Shown piece by piece: positions 30,022 through 49,309 of a stretch of 64,000 bases of DNA; the first letter of the stretch is position 1; each line of letters begins with the position of its first letter. Position numbers and translations under genes: made by a program. Source of the DNA: Gammaproteobacteria bacterium (GTDB lineage Bacteria; Pseudomonadota; Gammaproteobacteria; JAJPIJ01). A model generated the notes under the pieces. The model ran no database searches. It saw only the letters and a program-made list of their open reading frames with translations, and had not been told where the DNA came from. Location: positions 186,001 to 250,000 of the forward strand of contig JAJVIQ010000003.1 of NCBI GenBank assembly GCA_022071965.1, in the 5' to 3' direction.

Positions 30022-30499
30022 GCACTGCGGTGATTCCTGATGCCGAAGTATCGGTAGGACGATCTCCCGCCGTTGCGGGACGAGCGAAAGCTCGATCGCG
30101 ATAGCGCTGCGCGCGGGCTCTTCCGCCTCGCAACTTCGCGCCGGGAGGACTTTCATATCTTCCCGGGCATCGGCCACGCCGCGTCCCGACCAGCAAGGGG
30201 CTGCACGACGCCGCTGGATGCGCGATCACGGGCAGACCGCCGTGCCTGCACCCTGTGTCATCGCACGTCCAGTTCCGTGATTCCGCGGCGTCGTCGTGCC
30301 GGCACGGTTTTCAGAAACGTGTAATTCCGGTAGCTTTCGATCGAGACGGCACGCCGTATCCGTCGGTGACGATTGCCGGCGGCCGGTCGCACGCGCTTGC
30401 CCGCGGTCTTCAGGGATCAGGACGTCCCGTATCGTAGCGGGCCGCCGGTTCATGAAACAGACATGGCTATCGAATGCCTGAAACCTTCCCGGGAGCCGA
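30022..30499. other. Non-coding region between soxD and the universal stress gene
   Basis: No frame here looks coding. A small hairpin, CGAGC-GAAA-GCTCG at 30081-30094, is nested in a longer imperfect fold (GTTGCG near 30072 with CGCAAC near 30135). The hairpin could end the soxCD transcript or form part of an unannotated RNA, but it has no T-run. The promoter of the stress gene must lie in the right half, though I see no clear elements. Confidence 0.4.
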
Positions 30500-30500
30500 G

Positions 30501-31358
30501 ATGACGCCGAAGACGATACTGTTTGCCACGGACCTCAGCCCACGATGCGATCGCGCGCTGGATCGGGCCACGTCGCTCGCCGCCCGGTGGCACGCACGCC
30601 TGATCGTGGTGCACGTGCTTCCGGAACCGACACCACTCACCGACATGCCGTCGTGGCGGCGAGCACCGGATCCACGGCAGGCTGCCTGGGAACGGGTGCG
30701 CCGAGATCTGCAAGGAGCCGGGGGCATCGAGATCGACGTCGTAGTGGAGCGCGGTGAACCCGCATCGCTCATCCCGCAGCTCATCGTATCCCTCCGTTGC
30801 GACCTCGTCGTGACGGGAATGGCGCGCGACGAGACGCTTGGCCGCATCTTGTTGGGCACCACGGTGGAGGCACTGGTCCGCAAGACGAATGTTCCCGTGC
30901 TGGTGGTGAAGTCCCGGCCCCGGGGTCCGTATCGAAACGTGGTTGTGGCAACGGATTTTTCAGAAGGTTCACGATGCGCACTGGAGACGGCACTCGCACT
31001 TCTGCCGGAGGCGCAGATCAGCGTTTTCCATGCCTATGGCGTCAACTTCGAGGGGCTCGTCGGCGACCGGCCGGCGGCTCGCGAGTCCGCGGCACGAGAG
31101 GCACAGGCGGCCGGTGAAGCCTTCCTCGCCGCCACACCGGCGGTGGCCGCCGCGCGGCATCCGATCCGGGCCGTTTGCGAGTACGGCGAGGTCGGCGCCG
31201 TACTTCAGGACTTCATCGAGACTCGCGGCGCCGAGCTGGCGGTCCTGGGAACCGAGGGGCGCAGCGGCCTCGCGGGCGTGCTGCTGGGCAGCGTCGCACA
31301 ACGCCTGCTCGCTTACCTGGCGGCTGACGTACTGGCCGTGCGCCGGCAACGAGATTGA
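30501..31358 (+). CDS. Universal stress protein with two UspA domains
   Basis: This 285-residue protein contains two tandem UspA domains: TPKTILFATDLSPRCDRALD to LLGTTVEALVRKTNVPVLVV, and YRNVVVATDFSEGSRCALET to SGLAGVLLGSVAQRLLAYLA. The second ends with the G-2x-G-9x-G-S type ATP-binding loop. Such proteins support survival in stress or stationary phase. I chose ATG 30501 with GGGAG five bases upstream over ATG 30474, which lacks a ribosome site. A cation exchanger gene begins 17 bases downstream, probably in the same operon. Confidence 0.9.
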   Translation: MTPKTILFATDLSPRCDRALDRATSLAARWHARLIVVHVLPEPTPLTDMPSWRRAPDPRQAAWERVRRDLQGAGGIEIDVVVERGEPASLIPQLIVSLRCDLVVTGMARDETLGRILLGTTVEALVRKTNVPVLVVKSRPRGPYRNVVVATDFSEGSRCALETALALLPEAQISVFHAYGVNFEGLVGDRPAARESAAREAQAAGEAFLAATPAVAAARHPIRAVCEYGEVGAVLQDFIETRGAELAVLGTEGRSGLAGVLLGSVAQRLLAYLAADVLAVRRQRD

Positions 31359-31375
31359 GAGGCGGCGGACGATCA

Positions 31376-32362
31376 TTGGACATCAACGGGTTGGCTGTTT
31401 TCATCACGGGCCTCGCCGTTCTCATTGTCGGGGCGGAACTGCTGGTGAGCGGGGGTTCACGACTGGCGTTGTCGCTCGGCGTGAAGCCGCTGGTGCTCGG
31501 CCTGACGGTCGTCGCGGTCGGCACCAGCACGCCCGAGCTGGCGGTCGGCATCACTGCCAGTTGGGAGGGAAGCGGTTCGCTGGCGGTGGGCAACATCGCC
31601 GGCACCAACGTGGTCAATATCCTGTTCATCCTGGGCCTGAGCGCGCTGCTGCGCCCCCTGCCGCTGCATCTGCAGACCATCAGGCTCGACCTTCCGATGA
31701 TGATCGCGGCAGCAGGCCTGATGACCGCGTTCGCGTGGGACGGCGTGCTCTCCCGCCTGGACGGGAGCGTGATGCTCTGCGCGGCCATCCTCTACACCGT
31801 GGCGCTCGTCCGCAGGGCGGCCGGCGAGAGCCAGGCCGTGAAGGATGAGTTCCAGGACATGTTCGGCGACGACGGTCGCAAGGCGGGCCCGGCCGTCGCG
31901 CGCATGCGCGCTGCCAACGCCGCGCTCCTTGCCGCCGGCATACTGCTCTCGGTGCTCGGCGCCCATTGGCTGGTCAGTGGTGCGGTCGACATCGCGCGCA
32001 GGCTGGGGGCATCGGAGGCCTTTATCGGCCTCACCATCGTGGCCATCGGAACCTCGGGCCCGGAGCTGGTCACCACCATGATCGCCACCATCAGGGACGA
32101 GCGCGACGTCGCCATCGGCAACCTCCTCGGCAGCAGCATCTACAACATCGTGGCGATTCTGCCGATCACCTGCCTCGTTGCTCCCGTCGGAATACCGGTC
32201 GAGCCGCGTCTGCTGTTGTTCGACATCCCCCTGATGGCCGGTGCCGCGCTCCTCTGCGTGCCGGTCTTCATGACCGGCAGGCGCGTCTCCAGGGTCGAGG
32301 GCGGCGTATTCGTGGCGCTGTACCTGGGCTACCTGTCGTCACTGACCTACGTCCGCCCCTGA
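31376..32362 (+). CDS. Calcium/sodium antiporter of the CaCA family (YrbG-like)
   Basis: This 328-residue inner-membrane exchanger has two homologous halves of about five helices each. The alpha-repeats, with their ion-binding glutamates, read VVAVGTSTPELAVGITA in the first half and IVAIGTSGPELVTTMIATIR in the second, each followed by GN(I/L)xGxxxxN (AVGNIAGTNVVNIL and AIGNLLGSSIYNIV). It would exchange Ca2+ for Na+ or H+. The likely start is TTG 31376, since the frame has no good ATG and GGCGGCGGA lies upstream; a TTG at 31355 is an alternative. Confidence 0.88.
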   Translation: MDINGLAVFITGLAVLIVGAELLVSGGSRLALSLGVKPLVLGLTVVAVGTSTPELAVGITASWEGSGSLAVGNIAGTNVVNILFILGLSALLRPLPLHLQTIRLDLPMMIAAAGLMTAFAWDGVLSRLDGSVMLCAAILYTVALVRRAAGESQAVKDEFQDMFGDDGRKAGPAVARMRAANAALLAAGILLSVLGAHWLVSGAVDIARRLGASEAFIGLTIVAIGTSGPELVTTMIATIRDERDVAIGNLLGSSIYNIVAILPITCLVAPVGIPVEPRLLLFDIPLMAGAALLCVPVFMTGRRVSRVEGGVFVALYLGYLSSLTYVRP

Positions 32363-32468
32363 CCCCGGCAGCCCGTGCCAGCCGCCGCGCCGCCACCGGC
32401 AGGCAGACGCCGGCGGTGCGCGCGATCGCGAGTGGACCGGTGCGGATGGACGCGCCGGCGCCTTCGGG

Positions 32469-32687
32469 TTACCGGCGGCCCCGTTCCCAGTGAAACCTGT
32501 GCAGCACCCGATGCAGCACCGGGGTCAGGATCAGGCCTGCGGCGATCGAAAAGACCAGACCCGCATACAGCGCATAGCACCCGAGGAACAGCTTGCCGCC
32601 ATCCGTCCGGGGCGCGTCGATGGGGCCCATGCCGCCGAGAAGCATGGCGGCGTTCAGGAATGCATCGCGCCACGCAAGATGTTCGAG
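32469..32687 (-). pseudogene. 5'-truncated two-helix membrane protein relic
   Basis: The frame ending at 32469 reads LEHLAWRDAFLNAAMLLGGM, then a LFLGCYALYAGLVFSIAAGL helix and LTPVLHRVLHRFHWE. This resembles the C-terminal part of a small proteobacterial membrane protein whose first helix should precede EHLAW. That helix and its start codon are missing; upstream sequence on this strand has no family resemblance. The truncation point lies next to the truncated start of a divergent MerR-family relic, suggesting one deletion removed both gene heads. Confidence 0.55.
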
Positions 32688-32723
32688 TTGTCCCGGTGGC
32701 GGAACCACCGGGGTTCGGCGCGT

Positions 32724-32870
32724 GACATCAGGCGGCTTGCAGCGGGGCATCTCGCGGAGATCGAGGCAGGGATTGCCGAGCTGCAGTCGATCTCGACCAT
32801 CCTCGTCCACCTGCTCGCGCGCTCCCACGGCGGCACGCGCGCGGATAGTCCCATACTCCGTGACCTGCAG
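32724..32870 (+). pseudogene. MerR-family regulator relic, C-terminal part only
   Basis: The frame reads IRRLAAGHLAEIEAGIAELQ, then ILVHLLARSHGG and SPILRDLQ. This is the dimerisation helix and metal-loop end of MerR/CueR/ZntR-type regulators, which normally read CHGx..CPI. The helix-turn-helix is absent and both usual loop cysteines are replaced (SHGG, SPI). There is no start codon in frame with a ribosome site. It is a fragment, not a working regulator. Confidence 0.5.
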
Positions 32871-33060
32871 GTCGGCGGGCACATCGAGGCGGTACCGGCC
32901 GCACGGAGGTCGAGGCGAACGCCGAGTCGTGGCCCGAAGGCATCGACGCGGCGAGCGCGCCGGCAGCAATGCCGCTGACGCGCGACGACCTGGACAACGC
33001 CTCGCCCATGGCGAGAAGGAGATCGTCCGGCTAACGGAGTTGACCAGGAAACCCGAGCGG

Positions 33061-34302
33061 CTAGACGTAGGCGTCGACGAGACCGACGCGCAGCGTACGG
33101 ATGGCGGGCGAGGTCACTTCCTCTTCGCCGCCGGCAGGCTCCTGGTTCCCGGCCGCGGCGCCGCCTGCGAACTGCTGCGCCTGTCCGTCTCGCCCCGGCG
33201 CGTGCTGGAACACGTTCGCGTCGGCGAGGTTCAGACCGGATTGCGAGAGCATTTCGCGCAGCCGCGGCATCGCGTCTTCGATCACCTGCCGCACCGCATG
33301 GTGCGCGGTGACGAACTGCGCGCTGACCTTGTCGTCCTGCAGGCTCATGCGCACCTCAATCGGCCCCAGTTCCGGGGGATTGATCGCCACGCTCACCTGC
33401 TGCAACCCGTCCCTGACCTGCCACGCCACGCGCGAGGCGAATGCCTCCTGCCAGTGCGGATGATTGATCGGCAGCGGGATGCTCGTGCTGGCCGCGGCCG
33501 TCGTCGGCGCCTGGCCGACCTGCGCAGTCGTGGTGGACCCCGCTGAGGTCTGCGCCAGCGCGAGAGCCGTGTCGAATCGAGTCGTCGCCGCGGCCGTGCG
33601 ATCGGCGGCGGCGCCGGTGTCGCCGGCGGCGATCGCCGCGAGCTCGGCGCCGTGGCCGGCGTCGCCCGTGGCCGCGGCATGCGGATGCACCTGCCCGATG
33701 GCGACGCCGATGCGAGCCGTGCTTCCGCTCGGCGCAGCCGCTGCCGGCCGGCCGCCGCCTTGGGCGACGGGTGCGTCGCTTCCCGTGAGCGCGGTCTCGA
33801 GGGTCGTCGGTACCCTGCCGATCGAGGCGTGCGAGGTGGCCGTGGCAGCCGTGTCGCGCACCGCCGCGGCGACGGCGAACGGCATCGAGCTGTTCGCGGC
33901 GGCAGCGGCCGCCGGCGCACCCGTGACCGGCAACGGCTCGGCCACGACGTTCAACGATGGCGGCAATTCGTTGCCGGCCTGCGGCGCAGCCTCGGCCGCC
34001 CGTGCATCGGAAGCCTGATTCACCTCCACCTCGCCCTGGGCCTTGCCGTCGCCGGTGGGCTGTGCCGTCTCCGTGCCGGGCCGGTTAGCGGCACCCTCGG
34101 TCCGCTTGCCCACGGGCCGCTCGTCTTCCGAGGCGGCATTTGCCTTTTCGGCCCGGGACTTGGCGGAAGTGTCGCGCAGGACCTCCGAGAACTCGCGACC
34201 GCGCGGTCCCGGTGCTGCGCTGCGGCCGGTGGACCCGGCTGTGGCGCGCGCGCCGGGCGCGTCGGACGGAGTAAGGGATGCGGCGTTGATGGCGGCAGGC
34301 AT
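33061..34302 (-). CDS. fliK: Flagellar hook-length control protein FliK
   Basis: This 413-residue protein has a long, low-complexity, alanine-rich secreted ruler region and a conserved C-terminal domain (HWQEAFASRVAWQVRDGLQQ, then VAINPPELGPIEVRMSLQDD). The latter is the FliK substrate-specificity switch that acts on FlhB when the hook is complete. The start at 34302 is favoured because a sigma-54 promoter at 34352-34367 would begin transcription near 34342, downstream of the alternative ATG at 34368. It follows fliJ in reading order but is separated from it by a gene on the other strand and has its own promoter. Confidence 0.87.
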   Translation of the reverse strand: MPAAINAASLTPSDAPGARATAGSTGRSAAPGPRGREFSEVLRDTSAKSRAEKANAASEDERPVGKRTEGAANRPGTETAQPTGDGKAQGEVEVNQASDARAAEAAPQAGNELPPSLNVVAEPLPVTGAPAAAAAANSSMPFAVAAAVRDTAATATSHASIGRVPTTLETALTGSDAPVAQGGGRPAAAAPSGSTARIGVAIGQVHPHAAATGDAGHGAELAAIAAGDTGAAADRTAAATTRFDTALALAQTSAGSTTTAQVGQAPTTAAASTSIPLPINHPHWQEAFASRVAWQVRDGLQQVSVAINPPELGPIEVRMSLQDDKVSAQFVTAHHAVRQVIEDAMPRLREMLSQSGLNLADANVFQHAPGRDGQAQQFAGGAAAGNQEPAGGEEEVTSPAIRTLRVGLVDAYV

Positions 34303-34351
34303 GTGATTGCGACGTCCTCGATGGCAACGGCGGGCTCTTGCAGCACCAGTC

Positions 34352-34367
34352 AGCAACCGGTGTGCCA
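34352..34367 (-). promoter_or_regulatory. Sigma-54 promoter of fliK
   Basis: The minus strand reads TGGCACA-CCGG-TTGCT, matching the sigma-54 consensus TGGCACG-N4-TTGCW at all but one position, with exact GG-N10-GC spacing. Transcription would start near 34342, 40 bases before the fliK ATG. FlrA or FlrC is the expected activator. Confidence 0.8.
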
Positions 34368-34466
34368 TGACTCCTTCAATCGGGATCGGCGCCCGGGCGA
34401 CCGGCCCGTGCACCGGCTGCAATCCCGGCACTTTCATCCGTCGGCGCGAAGCCTGGCGCCGAAAGC

Positions 34467-34493
34467 TAAACCTCCATGCAACACGGCCGAAAA
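34467..34493 (+). promoter_or_regulatory. Sigma-28 (FliA) promoter facing right, upstream of the 63-residue gene
   Basis: TAAA at 34467-34470 is followed after exactly 15 bases by GCCGAAAA (34486-34493), one mismatch from the FliA -10 consensus GCCGATAA. Its quality is close to that of the flagellin promoter in this window. Transcription would start near 34500, about 38 bases before the ATG at 34538. Confidence 0.75.
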
Positions 34494-34537
34494 CCTGATC
34501 GACAGGCGCGCCCCGTGTGGCGCGCGAGGAGGACGCC

Positions 34538-34729
34538 ATGAGCGCCACCATCATCGAGATGAACGCGTGGAGGCTGCGGGCCGACGCCAAGGAATACGTG
34601 CGCCGGTTCGTCGAGTACGGTTTCGAATGCGCGGCACTATGGTCCATGGACCACGTGCGCGAGGCCGATTCCGCCCGCTTCAGCTCTTACGTACGCGAAG
34701 AGATGCGCAAGTGCGGATTCGGCGGCTGA
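34538..34729 (+). CDS. Unknown 63-residue protein under FliA control, antisense within the fli cluster
   Basis: The product begins MSATIIEMNAWRLRADAKEY and ends EEMRKCGFGG; it is charged, tryptophan-containing, probably two or three helices, with cysteines near residues 31 and 59. It has no signal peptide or membrane helix. The ATG has a near-perfect ribosome site (GAGGAGG, five bases upstream) and a sigma-28 promoter 45 bases upstream. It sits on the plus strand between fliK and fliJ, both on the minus strand. It does not look like FlgM, FliT, a stator or a chemotaxis adaptor. I do not recognise it. Promoter, ribosome site and sensible composition together argue that it is a real late-class flagellar gene. 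Confidence 0.7.
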   Translation: MSATIIEMNAWRLRADAKEYVRRFVEYGFECAALWSMDHVREADSARFSSYVREEMRKCGFGG

Positions 34730-34832
34730 TGGCCGCGGGCCGAATGGTGGTCGTCGACGCATGACTACCGGCAGCCGGCGCCACGATCGCCGTCGCACCC
34801 CCGACCGCACCCTGCAATCCCCGGTTCGCCCC

Positions 34833-35270
34833 TCACCGCTTGCCGCCGTCCGACAACGGACGGAGATCGTCGATCTCCCGCTGCACCTTGCTCTCCGCCG
34901 CGCGCGCCTCCTCGCGACGGTAGCGATCGGCGATGTCGCCCAGCGCATCCTGCCTGCGCTTCTGCCCCTGCCACTGTTCGCGGTGCTGGTCGTTGACATT
35001 CTGCTTGTGCGCCAGCTGCTGCTGCAGCTGCGCGATGGCGATGTCGAGCCTGCTGACGAAGTTACGCAGCTCGCGCATCTGCGCCACGCCCATCGTCGTG
35101 CCGCTCACCAGCCGCGAGAGGTACTGCGAGCGGCCCGCCTGCAGTTGTGCGAGCTTCTGCGCGAGGTCGTCGACCTCGCGCCGGCTCGCCAGCAGGCGCT
35201 CCGCGGCCGCCCGTTCGGACTGCTCGGCGAGCCAAAGCACGGTCTTCATGCGCTTCCCCTTCCCGGCCAT
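34833..35270 (-). CDS. fliJ: Flagellar export chaperone/stalk protein FliJ
   Basis: This 145-residue protein is almost entirely a long coiled-coil hairpin rich in glutamine, arginine and glutamate (LAEQSERAAAERLLASRREV, then SRLDIAIAQLQQQLAHKQNV), as expected of FliJ, the central stalk that inserts into the FliI ATPase ring and contacts FlhA. It starts three bases after the fliI stop. An internal ATG at 35249 with a good ribosome site is possible, but homologues carry the extra N-terminal residues. Confidence 0.88.
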   Translation of the reverse strand: MAGKGKRMKTVLWLAEQSERAAAERLLASRREVDDLAQKLAQLQAGRSQYLSRLVSGTTMGVAQMRELRNFVSRLDIAIAQLQQQLAHKQNVNDQHREQWQGQKRRQDALGDIADRYRREEARAAESKVQREIDDLRPLSDGGKR

Positions 35271-45857: not shown

Positions 45858-46286
45858 TCAGCCGCTGCTCGCCGCCACGGAAATGCTCTCGGCCGCCTCA
45901 CGGATGCCATCCCAGCCCGTCTGGATCTCGCACAGCAGTCGATGCACCTCGCGCAGGGCCTCCGGGTCGTTACGATGGTTGGCGCTGACGAGGCGCCGCG
46001 CCATGTAATCGTAAAGCTGGTCGAGCCGTGCCGCCAGCTCACCACCGGCCTCCATGTTCAGGCCGCCGCGCAACCCGTTGACGATCGCGATGCAGGCATC
46101 GATGGCCTCTCGTTTGCCGGGCATGTTTCCGCGCTGGATATGTCCGAGCGCCTCGGCGAGGCGCGCCAGGGCGCCGTCGAACAAGAGCTGTACGAGCCGG
46201 TGCGGCGATGCGCCCAGCACGGCCGAATGCACACCCACCTTCCTGTACTTGCCGATCGCCGAGATGGTCCTGCCCGCGTTTGCCAT
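45858..46286 (-). CDS. fliS: Flagellin export chaperone FliS
   Basis: This 142-residue four-helix chaperone prevents premature flagellin assembly. The core SAIGKYRKVGVHSAVLGASP with HRLVQLLFDGALARLAEALG is diagnostic, followed by LNMEAGGELAARLDQLYDYM. I start at ATG 46286 with GGGGAA nine bases upstream; the frame is open further up, but the usual family length supports this start. It is placed with fliT in a pair separated from fliD by about 225 bases that contain a sigma-28-like promoter. Confidence 0.93.
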   Translation of the reverse strand: MANAGRTISAIGKYRKVGVHSAVLGASPHRLVQLLFDGALARLAEALGHIQRGNMPGKREAIDACIAIVNGLRGGLNMEAGGELAARLDQLYDYMARRLVSANHRNDPEALREVHRLLCEIQTGWDGIREAAESISVAASSG

Positions 46287-46357
46287 TCTTTGCATTTCCC
46301 CGAAGAAATGTAGGTGGGTTTCCATGCGAATCAGGCGCGCTGCTCGCATACCCATGC

Positions 46358-46384
46358 TTAGCGGCGGAGGCGGCCAAACCTTGA
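46358..46384 (-). promoter_or_regulatory. Probable sigma-28 promoter of fliS-fliT
   Basis: On the minus strand TCAA (one mismatch to TAAA) is followed after 15 bases by GCCGCTAA (one mismatch to GCCGATAA). It lies about 70 bases upstream of the fliS start, in the 225-base gap after fliD. Confidence 0.5.
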
Positions 46385-49282: not shown

Positions 49283-49309
49283 TTAACGGCGTGCGGGCGG
49301 CAGACTTTA
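49283..49309 (-). promoter_or_regulatory. Sigma-28 (FliA) promoter of fliC
   Basis: The minus strand reads TAAA, 15 bases, then GCCGTTAA, one mismatch from the FliA -10 consensus. The bases after TAAA (GTCT) also resemble the extended GTTT. Transcription would start near 49277, giving a leader of about 100 bases before the flagellin ATG. Confidence 0.85.

Follow-up and report, generated by a model that had tools for sequence, protein, structure and literature searches.

A conserved small gene behind a FliA-type promoter between fliK and fliJ, a probable genus-restricted class IV flagellar gene

Results

The whole stretch of DNA analysed here (the window, 64 kb in length) carries fliK at 33061-34302 (PF02120, E 3e-24) and fliJ at 34833-35270 (PF02050, E 3e-16), both on the minus strand and separated by a gap of 530 bp, and entirely inside this gap on the plus strand sits a predicted gene for a 63-residue protein (34538-34729, from the first base of its ATG to the last base of its stop), recognised as such by a conserved coding pattern in a relative. 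It is preceded on the same strand by a FliA (sigma-28) promoter, TAAA-N15-GCCGAAAA, at 34467-34493, which has no mismatch to the motif, by a probable 5' leader at 34500-34537 as counted from the presumed transcription start, and by a ribosome site, GAGGAGG, read in the sequence at 34526-34532. Folding predicts a 7-bp GC hairpin in the leader (34506-34525), the stability of which is no greater than that of shuffled sequences (z -0.62), and therefore its conservation alone is notable. Neither a sigma-70 promoter nor an intrinsic terminator was found at the locus. The original prediction had described a promoter, a GAGGAGG site and a 63-residue frame at these positions, on the strand opposite to fliK and fliJ and between them, and all of this is borne out by the sequence and by the domain matches of the two flanking genes; its further description of the frame as antisense inside the fli cluster holds with respect to strand, but not with respect to overlap, as neither neighbouring coding sequence is touched.

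Upstream of fliK lies a sigma-54 site, TGGCACACCGGTTGCT (34352-34367, minus), which points away from the small gene, is the sole exact match within the window, and keeps its -24/-12 elements in a relative of the same genus. Because fliK has this site of its own, the small gene is to be viewed as divergent from fliK rather than antisense to a coding region. In regulatory terms it stands between the sigma-54 site of fliK and its own sigma-28 site, and it is convergent with fliJ, with 103 bases between the two stops. On the minus strand the fliK frame remains open in both genomes of the genus for 345 bases 5' of the likely fliK start (34303-34647), so an automatic gene caller may lengthen fliK and hide the small gene. 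In this window the flagellar cluster ends at fliK. The frames to its left (30474-33060) resemble, by eye, a sodium/calcium exchanger and a protein of the universal-stress type, so that fliK is not followed by fliL-fliM-type genes.

The promoter was compared with the remainder of the window by a search for TAAA-N15-GCCGAWAA allowing at most one mismatch, with the chance expectation drawn from shuffles. Two matches were returned where 0.03 were expected, namely the site of the small gene (no mismatches) and that of flagellin (49283-49309, minus; one mismatch), such that the view of the small-gene promoter as about as good as that of flagellin is upheld, the former being slightly closer to consensus. 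In the 4.3 Mb genome of the relative, the small-gene site is the only match without a mismatch. Flagellin is preceded by a FliA-type site in both genomes of the genus, as is flgM (TAAA-N15-GCCGCTAC). The genome encodes both FliA itself (TIGR02479, 267 bits) and its anti-sigma factor FlgM (PF04316, 60 bits), as belongs to a class IV regulon, and the sigma-28 promoter directly upstream of the small gene is of the type proper to this organism. As the window also holds FleQ-like and FleR-like sigma-54 activators, FliS, FliT and flagellin, the flagellar hierarchy is of the Pseudomonas/Vibrio kind (PMC7064773). At the level of sequence, the case for FliA control of the small gene is strong.

Other FliA-like sites were also encountered. 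A weaker one, TCAA-N15-GCCGCTAA (46358-46384, minus), adjoins the start of the fliS frame (45858-46355) and is present in the relative too (L158:6340, minus). A consensus site elsewhere in the genome (L050; G000:C2:207419-207445, minus) lies roughly 50-100 bases upstream of a gene for a 115-aa pentapeptide-repeat protein (PF00805), which is 93% identical in the relative, where the site is found with one mismatch (G001:C43:14117-14143, minus). This gene is a candidate for a second uncharacterised FliA target.

The 63-residue protein (7.4 kDa, pI 6.6) has no evident signal or membrane segment. Two AlphaFold2 runs gave pLDDT values of 56 and 59, with two helices modelled at low confidence, and so nothing structural supports a mechanism. 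Homologue searches across about 700 sampled genomes (56 relatives, 369 genomes of the class and 398 of the phylum, the last set overlapping that of the class), plasmids, phages, viral contigs and the PDB returned none beyond the genus, and the PDB search with the protein gave no match. A scan of about 85,000 species genomes for short exact peptides, the reach of which is close relatives, identified only the same-genus genome. The class and phylum samples contributed weak partial matches only; one (L010) was rejected because it reads through an array of tandem, CRISPR-like repeats, and the others (15-20 bits, partial, several of them in long frames or with stops) are taken as chance. No profile of Pfam, NCBIfam or PHROGs, including those for FlgM, FliT and FliS, matched near its cut-off, and no Rfam covariance model matched 34300-34900 up to an E of 1. 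Downstream of fliJ, 58 other regions from the class were examined and all lack an opposite-strand FliA site, as judged by a strict motif that weaker sites would escape. Two genomes of a sister genus have no recognisable FliJ, so no positional comparison is available there. As far as seen, then, the small gene appears restricted to one genus.

Within that genus the comparison is of two genomes, the source and one other (G001) that is about 10% diverged, in which the match falls on contig JAJVHZ010000030.1 of a gammaproteobacterial metagenome assembly, the same contig returned by the species-genome scan. Everything is kept there, from the promoter through the leader and ribosome site to the frame. 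Over 34480-34719 the DNA identity is 0.93-0.97 (about 95% for the block), against 0.60-0.82 in the flanks (34320-34479 and 34720-34839), and the conserved block extends from promoter to stop. Both promoter halves are unchanged while 3 of the 15 spacer bases differ, and the 44-base leader (34494-34537) has a single change, located in the hairpin loop. The 192 bases of the frame contain 11 substitutions: the start codon ATG becomes GTG, nine changes at third positions are synonymous, and one alters a residue (G62S), so that the protein is 98% identical. Nine of the ten internal substitutions are thus at codon position 3 (P 4e-4 under equal positions), with none at position 2, and third-position divergence (0.14) resembles that of fliI (0.143) and fliJ (0.123). 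The aligned stretch contains 137 frames of at least 50 codons besides those listed as genes, and the small frame is one of the three among them with the lowest replacement share, the other two being opposite-strand shadows of conserved genes; when all frames of at least 50 codons are considered, equally few replacements occur only in conserved genes or their opposite-strand shadows. The codon-position-specific purifying selection expected of a protein-coding gene is therefore observed, albeit in a small test since it draws on only two genomes about 10% diverged, and in a phase common to the minus frame. Given this conservation, the small frame is very probably more than a product of chance, as the original prediction had argued from the co-occurrence of promoter, ribosome site and protein-like composition. 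Of the homologue and the promoter motif that it proposed to look for in relatives, both are kept in the nearest one and nothing was recovered outside the genus.

Discussion

The reading that best accommodates these observations is that of a class IV flagellar gene which is specific to this lineage and encodes an accessory protein, and we consider it quite probable, as judged from promoter and codon pattern, that the locus is a FliA-driven, protein-coding late flagellar gene. The earlier proposal of an undescribed gene under a FliA-type promoter is in agreement with the conserved site and frame, with the presence of FliA and FlgM, and with a motif common to late genes. The conserved signal might nonetheless belong to the other strand, as the fliK frame is open upstream to the same ATG at 34647 in both genomes, and inside the overlap the third positions of the plus frame face those of the minus frame; the strand therefore cannot be read from codon phase alone, and the nine synonymous changes and one replacement would suit a fliK greatly lengthened at its N terminus (528 codons when started from 34647), with the plus frame as its shadow. 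It is very unlikely that this is the case, however, as the block runs beyond 34647 to the plus-strand stop and in doing so crosses a minus-frame stop kept in both genomes (34687-34689, TAA to TAG), while nearer fliK the identity of the extension is 60-70% with two compensating single-base indels. Moreover, the stretch that separates the likely fliK start codon (34302) from the upstream ATG (34647) contains the consensus sigma-54 site, and it is on the plus strand only that a fitting FliA promoter and ribosome site occur.

A transcript from this promoter could instead work as a small RNA that base-pairs with flagellar mRNAs, for example those from sigma-54 genes, whether it is purely regulatory or has a dual function and is translated as well. 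Sigma-28-dependent small RNAs are known in E. coli (PMC10578931), those of Campylobacter have predicted sigma-54 targets (PMC4626219), and the 44-base leader is conserved like the coding part, but the third-position pattern, the conserved end of the frame and the ribosome site favour translation, and the lack of an Rfam match up to an E of 1, a hairpin no stronger than shuffles and the want of an intrinsic terminator make a regulatory RNA improbable. Less likely again is that FliA binds here without effect, or that the site is spurious, and that the frame behind it arose by chance. In E. coli 30 of 52 FliA sites are intragenic, most without detectable RNA (PMC4183435), which sets a precedent to which the absence of homologues outside the genus may be added; the present site, however, is intergenic, stands 45 bases upstream of a start with a ribosome site, and has been conserved jointly with leader and frame while the adjoining DNA diverged. 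The original prediction also raised antisense effects, and the transcript does head toward fliJ, whose 3' end is 103 bases from the small-gene stop, with no intrinsic terminator found. Yet the frame is wholly within the fliJ-fliK gap, such that only read-through past 34729 would reach fliJ, no coding sequence is overlapped if fliK starts at 34302, and the interval from the small-gene stop to fliJ is poorly conserved (0.70-0.80); we regard antisense regulation of fliJ (or fliK) as most improbable.

If the small gene is a class IV accessory gene, its FliA transcription, timing, cytosolic location and accessory role are matters that we infer, and the course of events may be envisaged as follows. 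Upon completion of the hook-basal body and export of FlgM, FliA would transcribe the small gene together with flagellin, and the short leader with its GC hairpin and strong ribosome site would lead to translation of a soluble, probably helical, cytosolic product. This accessory protein might then bind a flagellar or chemotaxis protein and so tune late assembly or motor output; any protein-binding regulatory role, suggested by regulon, size and composition, is a tentative proposal that we hold to be somewhat doubtful. One option would be feedback upon the neighbouring sigma-54 fliK/hook stage, although it seems unlikely that a lineage-specific late regulator, via the protein, the conserved RNA leader or both, lets the FliA stage act back on the sigma-54 hook stage. 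A substitute for FlgM is rejected, a true FlgM being present in the genome. The size of the protein and its adjacency to fliK would fit a FliK chaperone, but FliA-dependent expression comes after FliK export and for this reason a chaperone is not preferred.

With flagellin, flgM and other class IV genes of polar flagellates, the small gene shares its promoter type and its genome, but it differs from them in having no homology, in lying opposite to the orientation of the fli cluster and in being found, as far as seen, in one genus. It is comparable to the Feds (flagellar coexpressed determinants) of Campylobacter jejuni (PMC7064773, citing Barrero-Tobon and Hendrixson 2012) in being apparently sigma-28-dependent and not a core flagellar part, with no sequence relation known; the Feds serve host colonisation, whereas nothing at the small gene points there. 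As a short FliA-type transcription unit it is also like E. coli UhpU, MotR, FliX and FlgO (PMC10578931) and Campylobacter CjNC1/CjNC4 (PMC4626219), but unlike the sigma-28 small RNAs it has a conserved frame and ribosome site and no Rfam match. What is best supported as new here is a protein sequence that matches no family searched, in what appears to be a lineage-specific class IV gene.

Lineage-specific genes in late flagellar regulons may be short and poor in relatives, and automated annotation can miss them. In this instance the promoter of the small gene predicts its regulator, and a single relative about 10% apart can distinguish a genuine small gene from a fortuitous frame, as long as the frame on the opposite strand is checked as well.
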